Shown here: positions 16,572-17,360 of the stretch, one piece after another | Layout: each line of letters begins with the position of its first letter | Position numbering within the stretch: position 1 is the first letter of the stretch | DNA from: Candidatus Indicimonas acetifermentans | GTDB lineage: Bacteria > Gemmatimonadota > Gemmatimonadetes > Palauibacterales > KS3-K002 | Length of the DNA stretch: 34,631 bases | Assembly (NCBI GenBank): GCA_947581815.1 | Contig: CANPVX010000006.1 | Coordinates: 1-34,631, forward strand | Reading direction: 5' to 3' | The notes under the pieces: model-generated | What the model saw: the letters and a program-made list of their open reading frames with translations, nothing else | Database searches by the model: none | Told to the model about the DNA's origin: nothing | Made by a program: the position numbers and the translations under genes

Positions 16572-17039
16572 ATGCGCGATTACGAGATCGTCTACATCTT
16601 CGATTCTGCCCTCGAGCAGTCTGTCATCGACCAGAAGCTAGAGCGGTTCAACAGTCTTGTCGCCGGGAACGGTGGCGGCGAGATCACGGCTGTCGAGCAT
16701 TGGGGTAAGCGACAACTCGCCTACCCCATCAACAAACGCGACAGCGGTTACTACGTCGTGGTCCAGCTGAGGACCACGGCTGACAAGCTTCCCGAGTTCG
16801 AGCGAGCCATTAAGCTCGACGAGGAGGTGCTACGTTACTTGGTCGTGCTCTCAGAGGGCGAGCTTCCGACGCCGAATTCGTCAGTGCTGGGAGAAACCAA
16901 GAACGACGTCGGCGGTCGTGACAAGGACGAAGTTGGCGGTCGTGACAAGGACAAAGTTGGCGGTCGTGACAAGGACGAAGTTGGCGGTCGTGACAAGGAC
17001 GAAGTTGCCGGTCGTGACAAGGACGAAGTTGATGAATGA
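16572..17039 (+). CDS. rpsF: 30S ribosomal protein bS6 with an octapeptide-repeat C-terminal tail
   Basis: bS6 pairs with bS18 on the 30S platform. The start is ATG 16572, 5 bases after GGGAGG; GTG 16566 would add two residues. Residues 1-95 are a normal bS6: MRDYEIVYIFDSALEQSV, the motif HWGKRQLAYPINKRDSGYYV and DEEVLRYLVVL. After a short linker, residues 113-152 are five copies of V(G/A)GRDKD(E/K), followed by VDE. The tail is flexible, densely charged with alternating signs, and ends in acidic residues. In E. coli the bS6 tail is extended with Glu by RimK, but no rimK is in this window. No ssb gene lies between rpsF and rpsR. Confidence 0.96.
   Translation: MRDYEIVYIFDSALEQSVIDQKLERFNSLVAGNGGGEITAVEHWGKRQLAYPINKRDSGYYVVVQLRTTADKLPEFERAIKLDEEVLRYLVVLSEGELPTPNSSVLGETKNDVGGRDKDEVGGRDKDKVGGRDKDEVGGRDKDEVAGRDKDEVDE
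16908..17027 (+). repeat. Five 24-bp tandem repeats within rpsF
   Basis: Units of 24 bases start at 16908, 16932, 16956, 16980 and 17004, with core GGCGGTCGTGACAAGGAC. They differ at only a few bases: GTC for GTT in unit 1, AAA for GAA at the end of unit 2, GCC for GGC in unit 5. A partial unit GTTGATGAA precedes the stop. Each unit is eight codons, so copy-number changes keep the frame. The near identity, even at silent positions, suggests recent expansion by slippage or unequal recombination. Confidence 0.95.
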
Positions 17040-17138
17040 ATGCGAATCGGGGCTGCCTTCGATCGAATGACTAGCCCGCGACGGCGTGCCGAAATTCTCA
17101 GCTGGAAAGTCTGAACTACAACTGACAGGTGATTGACA

Positions 17139-17360
17139 GTGAGAAGGAGACGCAAACCCTGCTATTTGTGCGAGACGAAGGTTCTAGTCGTCGACTACAA
17201 GGATAATGCGCTGCTGGGTCGCTTCATAACGGAGCGTGGGAAAATCGTTCCAAGCCGGATCACAGGTGCGTGCGCGCCCCACCAACGGAGGTTAAGGCGG
17301 GCGATCAAGCGCGCTCGCTACCTGGCGCTTGTGCCGTACGTCGAGAACCATCGACGCTAG
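17139..17360 (+). CDS. rpsR: 30S ribosomal protein bS18, zinc-binding type
   Basis: The product has 73 residues from GTG 17139, which lies at a normal distance from AGGTGA; TTG 17133 is too close to it. The bS18 core is clear: [34 protein letters not shown]8, C11, C45 and H48 make a C-x2-C...C-x2-H set, so this is the zinc-binding form. A basic N-terminus (RRRRK) precedes it. A gap of 99 bases from rpsF contains no gene I can see. Confidence 0.95.

Follow-up and report, generated by a model that had tools for sequence, protein, structure and literature searches.

The rpsF gene of Candidatus Indicimonas acetifermentans (Gemmatimonadota) encodes a ribosomal protein bS6 that ends in a tandem-repeat tail, in which five near-identical 24-bp units each specify the charged octapeptide V(G/A)GRDKD(E/K). 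The tandem repeat in the bS6 tail was confirmed as genuine, and nothing indicates a special job for it. The account to which we give the greatest weight, at a probability of roughly 75%, is a flexible polyampholyte tail that was expanded by slippage, is near-neutral or mildly tuned and belongs to the known kind of bS6 extension. The tail is a new example of a repeat-expanded tail within that kind. A fused bS6-bS18 open frame, carried by a different family (f6) within the same class, is a stronger finding than the repeat tail itself.

The rpsF gene and its repeat array

The analyzed DNA (the window) is a stretch of 34,631 nucleotides and corresponds to contig C6 of a 2.39-Mb draft genome that comprises 179 contigs and is 92% complete. 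In the window, ychF is followed by rpsF, rpsR, the gene of a DUF2232 membrane protein and rplI (bL9). The rpsF-rpsR-rplI operon context is thus present, with the DUF2232 membrane protein gene located between rpsR and rplI. The features of the rpsF region are listed below.

16572..17039, plus strand: rpsF, ribosomal protein bS6, 155 amino acids, ATG start (ORF, Pfam and NCBIfam)
16581..16847, plus strand: bS6 core, PF01250, residues 4-92 (Pfam match)
16866..17036, plus strand: low-complexity C-terminal tail of 57 residues (alignment with relatives; no secondary structure predicted)
16884..16907, plus strand: possible diverged old copy of the unit, VLGETKND (approximately half of the bases match; weak)
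16908..17027, plus strand: five 24-bp units, V(G/A)GRDKD(E/K) (TRF, unit alignment and codon comparison)
17028..17039, plus strand: VDE and the stop codon TGA (TGA at 17037-17039; translation)
17139..17360, plus strand: rpsR, ribosomal protein bS18, as its own gene in the window (ORF and Pfam; putative GTG start)

The rpsF product is bS6 according to family models that extend over the whole core, in agreement with the preliminary description. PF01250 (Ribosomal_S6) matches residues 4-92 with an E-value of 2.3e-26 (92 bits; cut-off, 27), and TIGR00166 matches with 82 bits (cut-off, 42.9). The ATG start codon is consistent with every aligned relative and is preceded by a strong Shine-Dalgarno-like sequence, AAGGGAGG. 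The tail starts at residue 99. An extension of about 45 residues had been described; a tail of 57 residues does follow the core, but the net gain over the nearest relatives, whose tails measure 25-32 residues, is only about 25-32 residues.

TRF applied to the window delineates the rpsF array at 16898-17031 (period 24, 5.6 copies, 94% matches, score 233), which is clearly the strongest tandem array of the window. The array contains the five near-identical coding units that had been described previously, in frame at 16908-17027. The units read VGGRDKDE, VGGRDKDK, VGGRDKDE, VGGRDKDE and VAGRDKDE in order and are followed by VDE and TGA. Only three base differences are observed among them (GTC/GTT in unit 1, GAA/AAA in unit 2 and GGC/GCC in unit 5), and units 3 and 4 are identical. 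The net charge of the tail is only -6. An open frame on the minus strand (16835-17155), which reads as SLSRPPTS repeats, is a mechanical shadow of the rpsF array. In a whole-genome search, the unit was absent outside rpsF, and other partial matches were found at chance-level mismatch counts. A dispersed DNA repeat was rejected because the genome carries the unit at rpsF only.

The codons of the array bear on its age, and they uphold the recent expansion that had been proposed from the sequence. Between units, 68 of the 72 same-residue codon pairs are identical, compared with 31 expected from the codon usage of the window, and the number of identical pairs never rose above 56 in 20,000 simulations based on the same usage. 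Arginine is encoded by CGT in all five units; CGT accounts for 13% of the arginine codons in the longer genes of the window. Codon-shuffled versions of the tail yielded TRF scores of no more than 53, versus the observed score of 233. Because synonymous codons agree between units far beyond the codon-usage expectation, the amplification is recent, and the codon comparison identifies the units as recent copies of one DNA stretch, not as a peptide motif long kept by selection. A 24-bp in-frame stretch of the rpsF tail region would have been amplified locally, recently and in tandem, presumably through replication slippage or unequal recombination.

The tail is predicted to lie outside the folded part of bS6. 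In an AlphaFold model of the window bS6 built with 20 relatives, the mean pLDDT is 87-97 over residues 1-90 and drops to about 50-72 in the tail, where neither helix nor strand is formed. The 57 post-core residues fit a predicted C-terminal extension of the disordered type. A PDB sequence search with the tail alone identified no solved relative, and a PHROGs search with the tail gave nothing meaningful. mRNA folding of the array region was no better than that of shuffled sequence (z +1.5), and an Rfam search of this region found no family match; both structure at the RNA level and membership of a known RNA family were rejected on these grounds. RTX-like calcium repeats have a period of 9. They were set aside for the present array, which has a period of 8 and no corresponding Pfam match.

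bS6 tails in other Gemmatimonadota

The tail comparison comprised 106 distinct bS6 proteins, almost exclusively of Gemmatimonadota. The genus of the window, in which slippage would predict copy-number polymorphism, is represented by one genome. In the alignment of relatives, the bS6 core is conserved and the tail is not. The 106 tails range from 14 to 156 residues, and almost all of them are charged and of low complexity. A TRF score of at least 100 was obtained for 18 of the 106 tails, where codon shuffles predict 0.5; 34 of the 106 score above all 100 shuffles of themselves. The window tail exhibits both the highest TRF score (233) and the highest Lys+Arg fraction (0.21) of the set. No motif is shared between bS6 tails of different lineages among the tails aligned.

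Seven genomes of the same family (G001-G007) encode acidic bS6 tails of 25-32 residues that lack the octapeptide array, one of which ends in ...FKSEDEDEVDEDE. The end of the window tail, KDEVDE, resembles that of this relative, which suggests that part of an acidic ancestral tail may have been expanded. Palauibacter and Benthicola belong to another family of this order, and their tails consist of up to about 150 residues of EAEEA, EPE, ED or DADA repeats. The long tails of the Palauibacter group (loci L019, L021, L027, L029, L031, L055, L056, L058, L060 and L062) consist of 119-156 residues, almost purely Ala, Glu and Asp, and exceed the bS6 core in length. In a distant family of the class, genome G053 (L137; G053:C68:1500-2900) carries a bS6-tail array of 24 bp x 5.3 copies that encodes TSTDEPA(A/T), with a TRF score of 226, the second highest among the 106 tails. 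The unit of this five-copy array is unrelated to the window octapeptide, and the array is independent. Because 18 repeat-rich tails were found where 0.5 were expected and the G053 array is independent, repeat growth in bS6 tails is recurrent in Gemmatimonadota.

The view that such a repeat is no general feature of bS6 fails in this phylum, where repeat-rich tails are common. Nor are bS6 extensions new as a kind, given that bS6 and ten other ribosomal proteins carry extensions throughout bacteria (PMC9534751). Literature searches on tandem-repeat bS6 tails returned nothing relevant within the literature searched.

The window tail shares features with several known bS6 proteins. As in other Gemmatimonadota (Palauibacter, Benthicola and others), it is rich in tandem repeats and of low complexity, and the G053 array likewise consists of 24 bp x ~5. 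The tails of other Gemmatimonadota differ in their units, which arose separately and are mostly purely acidic (EAEEA, EPE and ED). Mycoplasma pneumoniae S6 similarly has a normal bS6 core to which a lineage-specific extension is attached at the C-terminus, but the window extension is composed of near-identical octapeptide tandem repeats and has no predicted structure, whereas the M. pneumoniae extension adopts secondary structure in part and includes a loop that can be traced (PMC9534751). A flexible, charged C-terminus with an acidic end is common to the window bS6 and to those of E. coli and Pseudomonas (PMC4741518, PMC7343187). In contrast to these species, the genome of the window has no RimK match, and the window tail is gene-encoded and contains many basic residues in its repeats, whereas the poly-glutamate of E. 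coli and Pseudomonas bS6 is added post-translationally (PMC4741518, PMC7343187).

The bS6 tail in Gemmatimonadota is a charged, low-complexity and fast-evolving arm outside the folded core. This tail probably tolerates repeats being gained or lost in frame, and several lineages have expanded it independently. Although ribosomal proteins commonly serve as conserved markers, the end of bS6 varies from 14 to 156 residues across this phylum through tandem-repeat growth. The bS6 tails thereby constitute a natural experiment in how much flexible charged protein the ribosome surface tolerates.

Readings of the repeat tail

In the preferred reading, the octapeptide most likely provides just a flexible, highly charged and nearly neutral extension on the 30S platform and would have neither a fold nor a ligand of its own. 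The slippage mechanism, the presence of the tail in mature ribosomes and its near-neutrality are presumed. Near-neutrality is countered by the Lys+Arg fraction of the tail, the highest of all tails compared, versus its acidic relatives; this departure could reflect selection. Moreover, the fitness of M. pneumoniae is affected when its ribosomal protein extensions are disrupted (PMC9534751), so near-neutrality may be wrong, and a mild effect is possible.

It is unlikely that the tail is a selected functional arm. In that case, a polyampholyte located close to the mRNA exit and the 16S 3' end would influence mRNA binding or attract factors, and the repeat number would determine how strongly it acts. 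Such an arm would be in keeping with Flavobacterium, where bS6, bS18 and bS21 jointly contact the 16S 3' tail, hold it and prevent Shine-Dalgarno pairing (PMC9976891), with the importance of ribosomal protein extensions to M. pneumoniae fitness (PMC9534751) and with the persistence of charged tails across the phylum despite fast sequence change. However, the tails of different lineages have no common motif, no structure is predicted for the tail, and the codon identity points to recent copying and not to long-conserved peptide units. The rpsF gene itself has an ordinary strong Shine-Dalgarno-like sequence, which does not indicate a changed initiation mode. It gives no apparent sign of blocking of the Flavobacterium type, although one gene is little proof.

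A phylum-wide version of selection is equally doubtful. The Gemmatimonadota bS6 C-terminus would then be a fast-remodelled arm that is selected for length and charge and by which the 30S platform is tuned. One adjustable, VNTR-like form of this arm would be the octapeptide array, and in one whole family the arm would have become the linker within a covalent bS6-bS18 protein. If repeat number varied among strains and affected translation, the array would offer a simple genetic means of ribosome tuning.

An assembly artefact is highly improbable. The genome is a draft of short contigs, and the identical units 3 and 4 might have been miscounted. The array, however, contains distinguishing bases in units 1, 2 and 5 and spans just 134 bp, short-read assembly usually collapses such arrays rather than expanding them, and other assemblies of the phylum carry similar arrays.

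Even less credible is a tail that serves as a platform on which RimK or a RimK-like ligase makes modifications, as had been proposed in the preliminary description. In E. coli and Pseudomonas, RimK acts on bS6, and it extends the extreme C-terminus of the protein (PMC4741518). The window tail ends in VDE and thus presents acidic acceptor residues, which are insufficient alone, and the genome encodes one unnamed ATP-grasp protein. The suggested genome search for rimK was performed with Pfam and NCBIfam models and yielded no equivalog of RimK (S6--L-glutamate ligase) in the 92%-complete genome; there is a small chance that a rimK gene lies in the missing 8%. The RimK Pfam model produced weak genome matches only. 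NCBIfam names these as a cyanophycin synthetase (1149 bits) and a D-Ala-D-Ala ligase, and the third is the unnamed ATP-grasp protein, which scores 77 bits with the rimK-family model (cut-off, 143) and 21 bits with the S6 ligase model (cut-off, 331). Because RimK lengthens the very end of the protein and does not act on internal repeats, the repeats would not be a RimK platform.

The unnamed ATP-grasp protein (L071; G000:C4:900-2400) consists of approximately 364 amino acids, contains a proline/alanine-rich insert and falls under all NCBIfam cut-offs. The cyanophycin synthetase gene of the same genome (L072; G000:C31:4800-8300) is complete and encodes 927 amino acids (TIGR02068, 1149 bits).

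A trimeric beta-helix of the gp5/VgrG type, with the octapeptide read as VxGxxxxx, has almost no probability and was rejected: a tail-only Pfam search gave a sub-threshold match to PF22178 (T4 gp5 beta-helix; E-value, 0.0023), but the match reaches 18.5 bits versus a Pfam cut-off of 30.9, the monomer AlphaFold model has no strands, and control repeats give equal or better chance matches, since 2 of 10 order-permuted repeats equal or beat this E-value against one family or another (PF22178 itself in one case) and the G053 repeat, which is unrelated, has a Cornifin match at 3e-4.

Fused bS6-bS18 open frames

Throughout family f6, a single open frame encodes bS6, a mostly acidic low-complexity linker and bS18. 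The distance between the bS6 core and the recognizable bS18 part is approximately 50-100 residues, and the linker ends in a conserved (S)PPEFSGGRGRRRR-like stretch. A representative of 214 residues matches TIGR00166 at residues 1-93 and TIGR00165 at residues 155-211, both above the cut-off. In total, 37 distinct fused frames and one more were read. Fused frames are located as follows.

L052:2001-2642, plus strand: fused bS6-bS18 open frame
L020:1261-1893, minus strand: fused bS6-bS18 open frame
Loci L075-L108 and L140-L144: further fused bS6-bS18 open frames

By a count of match rows, approximately 68 genomes have a match that is free of stop codons and covers almost the entire fused query. 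In other families with a match that spans both genes, a stop codon is found between bS6 and bS18, as in the window. No separate bS18 was seen in the fusion genomes, most of which have one match each, the fused one. Within the limits of the literature searched, no report of a bS6-bS18 fusion was found. The fusion is plausible because E. coli bS6 and bS18 heterodimerize before rRNA binding (PMC4647458). On the evidence of its reading frame, the f6 fusion shows that the bS6 C-terminus of Gemmatimonadota can act as a putative linker towards bS18. By joining two assembly partners in one chain, the fusion would allow a direct test of whether the heterodimer is obligate. In the AlphaFold model of the fusion, the bS6 core is confident, the linker is disordered, and the bS18 part is helical and less confident.
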